Notes under the pieces: generated by a model | The model's input: the letters and a program-made list of their open reading frames with translations, nothing else | The model's database searches: none | Told to the model about the DNA's origin: nothing | Shown: positions 44,872 to 49,363 of the stretch, one piece after another | Layout: each line of letters opens with the position of its first letter | How positions within the stretch are numbered: position 1 is the stretch's first letter | DNA from: Flavobacteriales bacterium 33_180_T64 | GTDB lineage: Bacteria > Bacteroidota > Bacteroidia > Flavobacteriales > Flavobacteriaceae | NCBI GenBank assembly: GCA_002162685.1 | Contig: MAAQ01000013.1 | Coordinates: 186,001 to 250,000 of the forward strand | Direction: 5' to 3' | DNA: 64,000 nucleotides | Program-made: the position numbers and the translations under genes

Positions 44872-44883
44872 AATTCATTATTT

Positions 44884-44980
44884 ATTGATTAATAGCACTT
44901 TAAAATAAAAAATAAAACAAAGTAAAACAACTTAATTCGCTGAAAACCTAACAATTAGGCGTCAAAAACTAAATCCTAAA
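44884..44980 (-). promoter_or_regulatory. Promoter module of the 44290-44871 lipoprotein gene, divergent copy
   Basis: On the minus strand AGTGCTATTAATCAAT (44899-44884) is identical to 16 bases in the unit at 45344-45429. Next upstream is a weak -7-like TATTTTAA. Two TTAG-TTTT/TTAG-GTTT words about 21 nt apart occupy the place of the direct repeats in the other copies, but their similarity is low. Confidence 0.4.
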
Positions 44981-45130: not shown

Positions 45131-45200
45131 ACCATTCATACAGTTTTTTTTACCTCTTATAGTTTTTTTTCTAGAGCATCCTTAATTTTTACGATTTTAG
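45131..45200 (+). promoter_or_regulatory. Regulated promoter module 1 (direct repeats plus weak -7)
   Basis: ACCATTCATACAG and TACCTCTTATAG, each followed by a run of T, form two direct repeats about 19 nt apart. The first base of the module is 62 nt from a -7-like GATTTTAG (45193-45200). The -7 is poor against TAnnTTTG, which suits activator dependence. A LytTR-type regulator is one candidate binder, by resemblance only. Confidence 0.5.
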
Positions 45201-45204
45201 CGCT

Positions 45205-45275
45205 GCTATTAATCAATTCACATAACCTTATTTTCACCTCGATGTTATCGAAAATAAAATAAGGTTTTTGTTTTT
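45205..45275 (+). ncRNA. Putative small RNA, unit 1
   Basis: No frame is open here. After the promoter module comes a roughly 70-nt segment ending in an outer stem AACCTTATTTT (45224-45234) with AAAATAAGGTT (45256-45266), a nested stem TCGAT (45239-45243) with ATCGA (45247-45251), and a T tract. Unit 2 has the same architecture with different bases. The 5' end is an estimate from the -7 position. Confidence 0.5.
45224..45275 (+). terminator. Terminator of unit 1
   Basis: The 11-bp stem 45224-45234/45256-45266 is followed by TTTTTGTTTTT on the plus strand, so it terminates plus-strand transcription. Confidence 0.65.
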
Positions 45276-45343
45276 CTGTCTTTTTTTATCTGAAATTGGA
45301 TTTTAAAACTAATTAATATTATCTTATTGTTTATAACATAATT

Positions 45344-45413
45344 ACCATTCATACAGTTTTTTTTACCTCTTATAGTTTTTTTTCTAAAGCCCACTAAATT
45401 TTTCCGATTTTAG
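45344..45413 (+). promoter_or_regulatory. Regulated promoter module 2 (direct repeats plus weak -7)
   Basis: About 90 percent identical by eye to module 1 across 45131-45216. The first base and the -7-like GATTTTAG (45406-45413) are again exactly 62 nt apart. Most differences fall between the second repeat and the -7 element. Confidence 0.5.
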
Positions 45414-45417
45414 TAGT

Positions 45418-45490
45418 GCTATTAATCAATTATATGAAACCTTATTTCGCAATCGACTTGTCGATATTGAAATAAGGTTTTTGTTTTTTT
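45418..45490 (+). ncRNA. Putative small RNA, unit 2
   Basis: Outer stem AAACCTTATTTC (45437-45448) with GAAATAAGGTTT (45469-45480), 12 bp perfect. Nested stem ATCGA (45452-45456) with TCGAT (45461-45465) and loop CTTG. The T tract TTGTTTTTTT follows. A 13-codon ATG frame inside the hairpin is not conserved in unit 1. It ends just before the convergent DUF1501 gene. Confidence 0.5.
45437..45490 (+). terminator. Terminator of unit 2
   Basis: A perfect 12-bp stem with a nested 5-bp stem and a plus-strand T tract. On the minus strand the T tract is poor, so it is oriented for unit 2 rather than for the DUF1501 gene. Confidence 0.65.
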
Positions 45491-45494
45491 TAAA

Positions 45495-46685
45495 TTAAAT
45501 GAAATCTAATTTTGAAAATGATTTGTTTAAAATCGTTTTATCTTCAACAGCTAACCATTTATCTAGAACTGTTGCATAAACAGATCTAAAGTCTACATTA
45601 TATTTTAAATCACCATTATCATCTAAATCTGATAAGCTAGCAAGTTTGTTATAAAAGCCTGGTGTTTTTAGTTGATTTCCAATAATAAACAAATTACTTG
45701 CTGCACCATGATCGGTCCCATTAGCAGCGTTTTGTTTTACACGTCTACCAAACTCTGAAAACGTAATAATAAGTGTATCATTAAAAGTGCCTTGTTGTTT
45801 CAAATCGCTAACAAAAGCTTCAATACTTTCAGCATAAACTTTCAATAAACGGGCTTGACTATTCAATTGTCCTGCATGCGTATCAAATCCATCGAGAGAT
45901 GAATAAAACACTTTAGTTTCTATTCCTGAATTTATCAATTTAGCCGTCGTCTTTAATTGTTTTCCAAAGGCATTACCTGGATATTCAAATGTATTGGAAA
46001 CGGTTTTATGTTTTTCAAAAATATACTTTGCCGATGACTCTGCAGCAATCATGGTTTTATATAAATATCCTAAATTATGCTCACTTAAATGTTCGTCTTG
46101 ATAATATTTTAATACGTTTTTAAAATAGGGGTCCTGTGACGTTTTAAAAAGTATATATGGATCTTTAACAGCTATACCATTAGATTTTTGCCCTTTTAAA
46201 ACTAACGATAAACTATCGTTTATTTCAATAGCATTGTAAGGCTTACTACCATATTCATCTAAATATCGTCCAATCCAACCTGTTTGCCAATTTTGATCTG
46301 ACCCACTTGCTGTTTGCCAAATATCTGTAGCTCTAAAATGTGATCGATTTGGATTTGGATACCCTACGTTGTTTATAATTGTTAAATACCCTTTATCATA
46401 TAGTTTTTTTAATGGCAATAAACTTGCATGAAATCCAAGTTCATCGGTTGCTTTTATAATATCATTTTTACCTAAAGCAATGCTTGGTCGATTGCGATAA
46501 TAATCGTCATTATTAAATGGTATAATTGTATTAAGACCATCATTTCCTCCCGAAAGCTGAATAATCACTAAACGCTTATACCCAAAACTAGTTGTAAGTG
46601 AATTCTCAAATGCTTTTACAAAACTTGGCACAAAAAATAAGCTACTTGCTAATGATGATTGTTTTAAAAAATGTCTTCTATCCAT
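45495..46685 (-). CDS. DUF1501 protein, Tat-exported
   Basis: 396 residues from ATG 46685 (MDRRHFLKQSSLASSLFFVP); the open frame 45 nt further upstream overlaps the DUF1800 gene and is not needed. RRHFLK is a twin-arginine signal. The fold is sulfatase/alkaline-phosphatase-like: LVIIQLSGGNDGLNTIIPFN, SSLDGFDTHAGQLNSQARLL and TFSEFGRRVKQNAANGTDHG, all DUF1501 hallmarks. It nearly always pairs with DUF1800, as here, with a 2-nt gap. The function is unknown; export of a folded metalloprotein by Tat is likely. Confidence 0.87.
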   Translation of the reverse strand: MDRRHFLKQSSLASSLFFVPSFVKAFENSLTTSFGYKRLVIIQLSGGNDGLNTIIPFNNDDYYRNRPSIALGKNDIIKATDELGFHASLLPLKKLYDKGYLTIINNVGYPNPNRSHFRATDIWQTASGSDQNWQTGWIGRYLDEYGSKPYNAIEINDSLSLVLKGQKSNGIAVKDPYILFKTSQDPYFKNVLKYYQDEHLSEHNLGYLYKTMIAAESSAKYIFEKHKTVSNTFEYPGNAFGKQLKTTAKLINSGIETKVFYSSLDGFDTHAGQLNSQARLLKVYAESIEAFVSDLKQQGTFNDTLIITFSEFGRRVKQNAANGTDHGAASNLFIIGNQLKTPGFYNKLASLSDLDDNGDLKYNVDFRSVYATVLDKWLAVEDKTILNKSFSKLDFI

Positions 46686-46687
46686 AA

Positions 46688-48061
46688 TTAACACATTTGA
46701 TATTCGGGTAATGACATTAACTGCACACAAAAATCTCTTTTTGAAGATTTGCTTAATGTTTCGGTATAAGTATTTGTTCCTTTACTTAATGTAGGTATGA
46801 TAAGATAAGTCCTTAACGTATTAAAAGATTCATTTTCAAAATGCCCATCAAATGTTCCCCAGTCTACTTTTACACTAACAAACTTATTTTTTCTTTTCTT
46901 TTGGTAATACTTTTTAAAACGATCTTCAAACTCACCTTTCTTTTTTATTGAAATTTCAGCGTTAGCTAAAAGAATTGATGGTAATTTTAAACGTACCATA
47001 ATTGTATTACTATTAATCCAATTTTTTCCACCTTTCCATCCAGCAACATTTGGAGGGTTTAAAAGTATTTGGCCTAAAAGGCTTTGTATTTTTAGAAGGT
47101 CCTTTGTGTTTTTAAACTGCACAGGAACGGTTCTACATATGCCTACTATAAGCTCTACTGGAGATTTTATTTTTGTGCCAATATGATCTTCAGAATAAAA
47201 CCAATCTGACATAAATATATGTCGCATAAGATTTTCAATATTATAATCTTTATAGAAAATTGTTGTCAATTCTTCTACACGAGTTTCATCAATACTTTCA
47301 TTTACAAAATAGCTAAATATTTTTCGACATACGAAACGAGCACATTGCTTTTGTTTTAATATGATATCAATAATATCATCACCATCATAGCGACCTGTAT
47401 GCCCAAAAAATGTTTTAAAATCGTAGTCATGCTGACGATCTCTTAACACAAACTCGCCTTCAAAATTGTTGTTATAACCTGTAAAAGCTCTCGCGCTTTC
47501 TTTTATATCTTGTTCAGTATAATGCCCCTCTCCTAACATAAACAACTCCATCAGCTCTCTTGCAAAATTCTCGTTAGGCTTTTGCTTTCTGTTTTGCTTG
47601 TTGTTTAAATACTTTAACATCGCTGCTTCTTTAGAAATAGCTTTAACAAAACCACCAAAATCACCTAAAGCATAAGCTCTTAATGTGTTATTATACTGTT
47701 GTACATGAAAAATATTCTGGTCACGACACACAAAATGATTGGCCCAGAATAATGTCATTTTCTCTCTTAATGTTTCATTTGAGGTTATAAGTCTGTTTAC
47801 CCAAAGCACATTAAATTCTTTAAGCTTTTCTGTGCTTTTATCAATAAATTCTTTTCGCTTACTCTTTTTGTCTATCAATATCTGTGCTGTAAAATGATCT
47901 AATTCCGAAGTATTGACTTCCAATCCTGTTAGACTTGAAGATTCTAAAAACAGCTGTTCTATAACTTGATGTTTCTGCTTTTTTGATAAGAGATGACGTT
48001 GATTTGGTGTTATTCCAAAACCTGCTCTCCAGTATAAATGCTGAATATCTTTCTGTTTCAT
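46688..48061 (-). CDS. DUF1800 protein
   Basis: 457 residues. The family marks are LYWRAGFGITPNQ, WANHFVCRDQNIF, ENFARELMELFMLGEGHYTE and SPVELIVGICR, followed by NPPNVAGWKGGKNWI. No signal peptide is evident. It is the standard partner of DUF1501. Both genes are read from a promoter with TATCTTTG at 48119-48126. Confidence 0.87.
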   Translation of the reverse strand: MKQKDIQHLYWRAGFGITPNQRHLLSKKQKHQVIEQLFLESSSLTGLEVNTSELDHFTAQILIDKKSKRKEFIDKSTEKLKEFNVLWVNRLITSNETLREKMTLFWANHFVCRDQNIFHVQQYNNTLRAYALGDFGGFVKAISKEAAMLKYLNNKQNRKQKPNENFARELMELFMLGEGHYTEQDIKESARAFTGYNNNFEGEFVLRDRQHDYDFKTFFGHTGRYDGDDIIDIILKQKQCARFVCRKIFSYFVNESIDETRVEELTTIFYKDYNIENLMRHIFMSDWFYSEDHIGTKIKSPVELIVGICRTVPVQFKNTKDLLKIQSLLGQILLNPPNVAGWKGGKNWINSNTIMVRLKLPSILLANAEISIKKKGEFEDRFKKYYQKKRKNKFVSVKVDWGTFDGHFENESFNTLRTYLIIPTLSKGTNTYTETLSKSSKRDFCVQLMSLPEYQMC

Positions 48062-48266: not shown

Positions 48267-48337
48267 ACCATTCATACAGTTTTTGTAACCACAGGTAATT
48301 TTTTTTATTAAACACCCTTATGTGTTTCCGACTTTTG
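48267..48337 (+). promoter_or_regulatory. Regulated promoter module 3, driving the cadherin-like lipoprotein gene
   Basis: ACCATTCATACAG (48267-48279) is shared exactly with modules 1 and 2. A diverged second repeat follows, then GACTTTTG (48330-48337), 63 nt from the first base, and TGCTATCAAC, like TGCTATTAATC in the other copies. The gene starts at 48416 after a leader of about 75 nt. Confidence 0.55.
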
Positions 48338-48415
48338 TAATGCTATCAACAAATATTATATATATATTTTACTTAACTGATATTGTTTATAAACCAATTT
48401 TAAAGACCACAAATT

Positions 48416-49363
48416 ATGAAAACAACATTCAAACTAACCAAAATATTAGCTTTTGCATTAATACTTATTGGATTTGCATGTAGTAATAATGATGATGATG
48501 TAGAAAATGCCGGAATTAGCGTTCAAGATCTAATCCTAAATTTTGATGAAAACCCAACTATAAATAACATTGTTGGCAATATCCAAGCTACAAGTAATAC
48601 TCCCTTAAGCTTTAGTATCACCTCTCAAACACCTTCTGGAGCATTAAGTATTAATCCAAGTACAGGAGAATTAACAGTAGCCAATGCTTTTGCATTCGAC
48701 TTTGAAACCAATCCAATAATTAATGCTGTAATTTCTATTAGTGATTCTAACACTTCTACCACATCGAATGCTACTATTAATTTAAATAACTTAGATGATA
48801 TAGCTTCTTTTTTAACGACCTCTGAAGCAGCATATGTCGCTGCAGAAGATGGTAATTGGATTGCCGTTACAGAAGCTGAATACAATACACTTGCCCTACG
48901 TTTAAATAACGTTTCTAAAGACGCTACATCTGATAGTGAATATAATTCTGAAATTATAACTACGTTTTCAAGCACAAATTTCACATTAGCAAGTGATAAT
49001 GGTCATAATATTCCTAATGCTAGCTATGTGTTTGCCTTTAAATATAACGCTCAAGCAGCTGGAACAATAAATAATAAAGTGCTTATATCTGATGATACGG
49101 TATCGGGAACATTTTCACAATTAGGAAATGTTCTCCCTAGTTCAACAACTGAAGACCAATTTTATGTCCTTAAGGGTAATAACAATCTAACTAATGCTAC
49201 AGGTTATCTTGGGTTTTATAATTCAACAGAAATGGGAATAAAAATTATAGATAATACTGGGAATTACGCTTATGGAAATTTAGAAGTCATGGATCTCCCT
49301 AGTTATTTCACCGAAGCTTATTTTTTATATCAAAGCTTAAGTACTACCCAAAAACAATGGTAA
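48416..49363 (+). CDS. Cadherin-like-repeat lipoprotein
   Basis: 315 residues. The lipobox is ILIGFACSNNDDD, with the acidic Asn/Asp linker of surface lipoproteins. A cadherin-like repeat covers about 33-125: IQATSNTPLSFSITSQTPSG, then ALSINPSTGELTVANAFAFD. The remaining 190 residues (TTSEAAYVAAEDGNWIAVTE onwards) have no domain I recognise. It is probably a surface-exposed binding protein. It is preceded by promoter module 3 and ended by the hairpin at 49408-49440. Confidence 0.75.
   Translation: MKTTFKLTKILAFALILIGFACSNNDDDVENAGISVQDLILNFDENPTINNIVGNIQATSNTPLSFSITSQTPSGALSINPSTGELTVANAFAFDFETNPIINAVISISDSNTSTTSNATINLNNLDDIASFLTTSEAAYVAAEDGNWIAVTEAEYNTLALRLNNVSKDATSDSEYNSEIITTFSSTNFTLASDNGHNIPNASYVFAFKYNAQAAGTINNKVLISDDTVSGTFSQLGNVLPSSTTEDQFYVLKGNNNLTNATGYLGFYNSTEMGIKIIDNTGNYAYGNLEVMDLPSYFTEAYFLYQSLSTTQKQW

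Follow-up and report, generated by a model that had tools for sequence, protein, structure and literature searches.

Tandem predicted small RNAs in a flavobacterium open with a 15-nt putative seed whose complement recurs near transcript ends

The window analyzed here, a 64,000-nt stretch of contig MAAQ01000013.1 from Flavobacteriales bacterium 33_180_T64, holds two tandem units on its plus strand, whose first bases are 45131 and 45344, a distance of 213 nt, and which are identical over their first 43 bases. Exactly 62 nt downstream of the first base of each (45193 and 45406) lies the -7-like sequence GATTTTAG, followed by an outer stem of 10-14 pairs (the count varies with the length of flank included in the fold), a nested 5-pair stem and a T tract. 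The spacing, the promoter-like element and the two-stem fold ending in T tracts had been read from the letters in a first-pass annotation, and each was borne out; a fold this stable arose in none of 200 dinucleotide shuffles (z of -3.7 and -6.0 for the hairpins alone). The two structured tandem units are not a product of chance. A DUF1501 and DUF1800 gene pair adjoins unit 2 (window 45495-48061, minus strand). The features of the locus, with the basis of each assignment, are as follows.

45131..45160, plus strand: LytTR-type direct repeat of unit 1, ACCATTCAT (45131-45139), 12 nt, ACCTCTTAT (45152-45160); sequence and match to the published form.
45193..45200, plus strand: -7-like promoter element GATTTTAG of unit 1; sequence and fixed distance to the seed.
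45204..45275, plus strand: predicted sRNA 1 (class A), 5' seed TGCTATTAATCAATT at 45204-45218; model R1, 79 bits.
45225..45265, plus strand: terminator hairpin of sRNA 1, T tract to 45275; fold, shuffles and covariation.
45344..45373, plus strand: LytTR-type direct repeat of unit 2 (45344-45352 and 45365-45373); sequence and 21-nt period.
45406..45413, plus strand: -7-like promoter element GATTTTAG of unit 2; sequence and fixed distance to the seed.
45417..45490, plus strand: predicted sRNA 2 (class A), 5' seed at 45417-45431; model R1, 90.7 bits.
45438..45479, plus strand: terminator hairpin of sRNA 2, T tract to about 45491; fold, shuffles and covariation.
48267..48355, plus strand: third promoter copy, ACCATTCAT, 12 nt, ACCACAGGT, then GACTTTTG at 48330 and a degenerate seed TGCTATCAACAAATA at 48341; sequence match.
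44883..44897, minus strand: seed-like TGCTATTAATCAATA, one mismatch, in sense within the 5' leader of a minus-strand lipoprotein gene (44871-44290).

Both window units are members of model R1, so their bit scores are self-included. The third promoter copy precedes a cadherin-domain lipoprotein gene (48416-49363), with the intervening stretch running to 48415.

With unit 2 as query, a match was obtained in all 23 Psychroserpens genomes, the weakest (G008) at E 0.002. Two or three units stand in tandem, 203-274 nt apart, at 19 of the 23 congeneric loci read, and a single unit at the other four. In one genome (G007, locus L021) there are three, two of them identical over the unit, pointing to a recent duplication. 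A pattern scan of named genomes, by which the genus is identified as Psychroserpens, returned 35 stretches with such a unit, some from MAGs, extending class A to Winogradskyella, Meridianimaribacter, Subsaxibacter, Arcticiflavibacter, Ichthyenterobacterium, Yeosuana and Aquaticitalea. The class A set itself comprises 65 sequences gathered by a regular expression written after the sequences had been read, of which 61 were aligned and four near-duplicates left out; the expression misses members (L023 and the second units of L019 and L020), and by requiring CC and GG-type stem letters it favors those two pairs.

Across the 61 aligned rows the 11-pair outer stem is formed in 96.6% of 671 cells. 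Changes on both sides occur at four pairs and in 35 cells, 26 of them at a single pair. The covariation score and the number of both-side-changed cells were reached by none of 500 shuffles and exceeded all slid versions of the alignment; as for pairs with changes on both sides, six of 500 shuffles and one slid version attained the observed number. The nested stem was excluded from this count, its place and length varying between rows. A GC-containing hairpin with a T tract, kept by compensatory change, is a hallmark of an intrinsically terminated sRNA, and class A possesses it. Thus the proposal that the hairpins covary stands for the outer stem, with the correction that the best-conserved part of the unit is its 5' end right after the promoter; restriction to this one locus without covariation, which would have refuted the proposal, is ruled out by the homologues in 23 of 23 congeners and in other genera.

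That most conserved stretch is TGCTATTAATCA, at the start. When folded from the first seed base, the class A RNAs leave the 15-nt seed wholly unpaired in 30 of 61 cases and involve three of its bases at most in 58. Folds of whole rows pair the first seed bases with the promoter letters TAGC in 22 of 61 rows; because these letters precede the predicted start, the RNAs were refolded from the first seed base.

The direct repeats that open the units can also be given a more definite form. The first-pass annotation saw the same repeats in both units, and they are indeed present in both; they now resolve as a 9-12-9 site, ACCATTCAT-12-ACCTCTTAT, of LytTR type. Sites of this kind are recognized as 9-bp direct repeats spaced 11-13 bp just upstream of a promoter, a description that both window units meet. 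The part of the published account available to us describes 9-12-9 repeats for the Streptococcus mutans LytTR regulators HdrR and BrsR, for instance ACCTCTTAG-12-ACCACTTAA for HdrR (PMC6193735). For 33 of the 65 class A units the best-fitting repeat period was 21 nt, with 13 or more of 16 box matches; a period-19 reading of the repeats (ACAG/ATAG) was dropped in favor of it. Winogradskyella units carry variant repeats, and the upstream copies are degenerate in some Psychroserpens tandems. The source genome encodes 27 LytTR domains, none of them inside the window. Judged from the repeats and these domains, with no binding data, a common regulator of LytTR type is probable for both units, but which one is unknown. 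The earlier suggestion of tandem sRNAs of about 70-75 nt under a common regulator gains support from the conserved promoter boxes, the conserved 5' end and the covarying hairpin, although transcription is inferred. A sigma-70-type scan, which found nine promoter-like sites against 4.9 expected and no terminator, was discarded, its consensus being unsuited to the clade.

What extends the locus beyond a pair of structured RNAs is the 15-mer at their 5' end. All 23 congeneric genomes contain an exact copy of TGCTATTAATCAATT; the reversed 15-mer, used as control, is in none of the 23. Across the family, 121 of 397 Flavobacteriaceae genomes carry the exact sequence and two carry the reversed one. 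The source genome has seven exact copies. A draw of 395 genomes across the phylum found it in five of 41 family genomes, a subset dominated by one genus, and in five of 354 others (control, two). The 15-mer is therefore near chance level outside Flavobacteriaceae and far from universal inside the family.

In the sense orientation, copies of the 15-mer open several dissimilar sRNA-like genes, which we designate classes A to E, and one small-peptide mRNA, class F. Class B has the box ATACGTAGAACTACGTAT and a terminator AAAGCTCTAA...TTAGAGC, and class C a distinct long promoter and a terminator GCGTCAG...CTGATGC; classes D and E are represented by two loci each among those read. The dissimilarity of the sRNA bodies was judged by eye, without a homology test, and classes B and C were gathered by regular expressions composed after reading the sequences and lack some members. 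The class B box (L048, L065, L145 and others) is palindromic, and similar TACGTA boxes precede the class F mRNAs; a LuxR-like regulator for it is no more than a guess. The conserved promoter region of class C (L047, L072, L166 and others) is unusually long (GCTTAATCTTTTTTAATTGC..CTTGTCGAAAAA..TATATTCGTC). Class F (L044, L150, L199) is an mRNA with the seed in its short leader, encoding a secreted-type peptide (MKKLLLSVAALMFATLLFSQ.., 46 residues in L044), and could possibly be a dual-function RNA. Variant seeds were sought in the divergent congeners G008 and G022. The class A and class C seeds of G008 (TGCTATTAATCAGTTTT, TGCTATTAATCGATTTT) differ only past the first 11 nt, a variation too small for testing coevolution of seed and site.

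The two orientations of the 15-mer keep different company. Among 216 distinct instances in the loci examined, 91 are intergenic with a terminator only downstream in sense, 45 have a terminator only on the other strand, 14 on both and 49 on neither, and 17 fall in ORFs of at least 100 aa; the terminator finder left 13 class C and eight class A members unflagged. Class A supplies 54 of the 91 sense instances. A -7-like T[TC]NG lies exactly 4 nt upstream of the seed in 75 of the 91 (49 of 54 in class A, 26 of 37 elsewhere), in one of the 45 antisense instances, and in none of 14 leader instances. The Fisher value for sense versus antisense, 5e-21, is overstated, as the copies share ancestry and the box pattern was settled on only once the sequences had been inspected. 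Even so, a promoter of its own at a fixed distance from the 5' end, as a terminated trans-acting sRNA is expected to have, is present. The idea that the 3'UTR copies are antisense promoters was rejected on the same count, only one of 45 having the box.

Antisense copies are located before terminators or in leaders. On the antisense (pairing) strand, 22 of 45 antisense copies have an ORF stop no more than 60 nt upstream, versus nine of 91 sense copies; the control, a nearby ORF stop on the sense strand, gave 14 of 45 and two of 91. Because convergent gene ends are common around antisense copies, this test is weaker than that of the -7 box. The strand pattern is what a pairing code would predict from sequence, with the seed in small RNAs and its complement in their partners.

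Many of these putative partners can be named. Sites near a stop codon and before a terminator occur in genes for a CAP-domain lipoprotein, fasciclin, YceI, a Dps-type ferritin, aldehyde dehydrogenase, isocitrate dehydrogenase, pirin, a CHRD lipoprotein and others. Where a stop is close by, as it is for 22 antisense instances, the site lies -2 to 41 nt from that stop. A KatG-type catalase/peroxidase gene has a site after its stop, seen by eye, with a terminator that the finder missed. OMP_b-brl_3 and seryl-tRNA-synthetase-like ORFs lie 219-384 nt from their sites and may be on separate transcripts. The antisense loci T2 and T3 have no convincing ORF nearby. T3 (L071, L131, L149, L167) is an intergenic anti-seed with short inverted arms at its flanks and a terminator downstream; it could be a dedicated sponge RNA, and several antisense sites without a nearby ORF may likewise be sponges.

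Two families, CAP and aminotransferase, were followed through protein searches; they were chosen since some members have the motif, while the searches themselves were motif-free. CAP lipoprotein orthologues were found in all 23 congeners, and the site is in the 3'UTR of 20 (13 exact, four with one mismatch, two with two and one with three); among the 23 scanned, it was not found in those of G008, G015 and G022. With three mismatches allowed, 500 letter-shuffled sites matched a mean of 0.2 and a maximum of 14 of 23, and at one mismatch a maximum of one, against 17 for the real site. The stretch ATTAATAGCA is kept in 19 of 20 CAP sites, the remaining one having a G.U-compatible change, and the spacer from stop to site is 7 to 24 nt.

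In other genera the complement turns up at the opposite end of a message. The motif scan gave 15 loci with a site 223-283 nt before an aminotransferase gene; in most of them a promoter-like TAAATTTAC lies shortly upstream, and the site sits within a near-repetitive AT-rich stretch. A 150-residue piece of the enzyme has its best likeness, below cut-off, to LegC-type sugar aminotransferases, from which a role in capsule or exopolysaccharide may be inferred. The protein scan matched in 114 genomes. Among the 30 best loci, the ones read, ranked by their similarity to a query in which the site is present, 17 have it and 13 do not. Fifteen of the 17 have a located MLTKTKI-type start (13 exact sites, two with one G.U-compatible change), with the site 216-293 nt before the ATG; the other two sites (L325, L327) are exact. 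Six of the 15 genomes were already known through the motif, and shuffled sites matched none of the 15 leaders in 200 trials. The nearest aminotransferase leader in the source genome has no site within three mismatches, its best being five. Conserved complementary sites in other transcripts, as required of a trans-acting sRNA, thus exist in CAP 3'UTRs and aminotransferase leaders. Predicted duplex energies of -19.7 to -25.9 kcal/mol lack a shuffled control and are not counted as evidence.

In our proposal, one intrinsically terminated, LytTR-controlled sRNA of about 72 nt is present in tandem as units 1 and 2, and several copies of it would be turned on by a LytTR regulator. The largely unpaired 5' end of this sRNA, 5'-UGCUAUUAAUCAAUU, with a core of about 11 nt, would act as a seed common to dissimilar sRNAs with other promoters, pairing with its complement just before mRNA terminators; related genera would offer a further site, close to where the long sugar-aminotransferase leader begins. 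Because the sites lie near transcript ends, where blocking of ribosome entry is unlikely, pairing would be expected to control transcript stability, by decay or protection, rather than ribosome access. We put the probability of such a shared-seed network, pairing near transcript ends and controlling stability, at roughly 0.72. It builds on observed anatomy, conservation, covariation and strand logic and on two target sites conserved in protein-based scans; it is by inference that the units are taken to be transcribed, to answer to this regulator, to pair inside cells and to alter stability, in whichever direction.

The same observations can be read otherwise. It is possible, if not favored, that the 3'UTR copies are no targets at all but give rise to terminator-protected decay fragments that soak up the sRNA set, with T2 and T3 as dedicated sponges. 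The closeness of anti-seeds to terminators and the absence of a convincing ORF upstream at T2 and T3 would suit this, and SroC and SkatA (from katA) are 3'UTR-derived sponges, according to the sections of the source available (PMC9438474); yet an anti-seed near the 5' end of an aminotransferase leader of about 250 nt is left unexplained. Rather improbable is that the 15-mer is bound by a protein, as a DNA site, an initially transcribed element or an RNA-protein site. Such a protein would have no need for opposite strands at promoters and 3'UTRs (75 of 91 versus one of 45), and a position between stop and terminator would be odd for a transcription factor, although protein binding would account for the sense copy in class F and for genomes with only the leader site, and the AT-rich, near-repetitive setting of that site fits it too.

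Least credible of all, and by a long way, is that the units are merely duplicated terminator hairpins or promoter debris beside the DUF1501 gene, with no functional RNA: the convergent end of that gene beside unit 2 and the near-palindromic hairpin, which the model matches on the minus strand as well, invite the thought, but it is on the plus strand that the hairpins run into long T tracts, and promoter, seed (outside the hairpin) and hairpin are conserved together across genera.

The shared-seed network has loose ends of its own. In ten genomes (G039, G131, G146, G166, G180, G267, G286, G328, G355, G359) the leader site is the only exact 15-mer, and the exact 15-mer scan found no seed partner in them. 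Seeds that diverge only beyond the core, like those of G008, are one explanation, and a different function of the leader site is the other. Class F mRNA, carrying the seed in sense, is likewise unexplained by pairing. As for chaperones, Hfq (PF17209) was detected in none of 19 genomes of the order and in five of 14 controls, and RRM_1 (PF00076) gave no match in the source genome at E 0.001 and was detected in two of 14 controls, one of them a Bacteroides. With neither found, pairing, if any, would be unaided or assisted by another protein.

No Rfam family matched the locus at curated score. Four weak matches at a permissive threshold (two miRNA and two streptococcal sRNA families) fell far below cut-offs and were dismissed. 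The only curated-score matches were Flavo-1 in the window and tRNA in 16 related loci, the presence of FopS in the Rfam copy being unconfirmed. Identity with Flavo-1 RNA (RF01705) was rejected, since its sole window match, at 1821-1892 on the minus strand (55.4 bits), is unrelated sequence. We found no published description of the motif or network among top-ranked results of the open-licence literature.

Among known systems FopS is the closest in build, as far as the available portion of its description allows. FopS/GibS of Bacteroides thetaiotaomicron are multicopy paralogous sRNAs with a free 5' seed and a terminator, and resemble the present RNAs as multicopy Bacteroidota sRNAs with surface functions among their targets (PMC11697453). 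According to the same partial text, they share a single body as paralogues, use sigma-ABfr promoters, bind the RRM-1 protein RbpB and pair near susC start codons (PMC11697453). The present system, by contrast, has dissimilar bodies with a common seed, no RRM_1 in the source genome, and sites in 3'UTRs and at leader 5' ends; an RRM-1 partner and pairing near start codons are FopS/GibS features that it does not show. LhrC1-7, Qrr and the Cia-dependent sRNAs are named in that portion as multicopy sRNAs (PMC11697453). They too occur in several copies with overlapping targets, but the body is common within each family. Their main sites are translation start regions. RybB, a 5'-terminal-seed sRNA, shares a conserved transcript 5' end as pairing region and envelope targets; it is Hfq-dependent, uses sites in coding sequences and ribosome-binding sites, and is a single gene.

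SroC and SkatA are comparable as mRNA-derived RNAs that pair with sRNAs, but in the excerpts available they are individual cases, with no identical 15-nt site across many unrelated 3'UTRs (PMC9438474). Rfp18 of Flavobacterium psychrophilum is also a structured flavobacterial sRNA, conserved in its genus; its pairing is predicted in the third stem-loop, and the accessible text notes no common 5' seed (PMC9723704). Identity with Rfp18 was set aside on these published features, incompletely available and without sequence comparison (PMC9723704). The unusual part of the present system is a common seed over dissimilar bodies combined with sites at transcript ends.

At its broadest, this amounts to a miRNA-like layout: one nearly invariant 5' seed placed on at least five dissimilar sRNAs, each with its own promoter type, and identical sites in stress and envelope 3'UTRs and capsule-type leaders, operating without Hfq or RRM chaperones in many Flavobacteriaceae. 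We regard that wider picture as an even bet. Flavobacteriaceae are major players in marine polysaccharide turnover, and how Hfq-less Bacteroidota use sRNAs is a gap in knowledge; since the 15-nt seed has partner sites that can be pinpointed in named genes, the question lends itself to direct testing. If the proposal is true, different signals, acting through LytTR boxes, TACGTA boxes and others, would converge on one pairing code whose sites lie at transcript ends and not at ribosome-binding sites.
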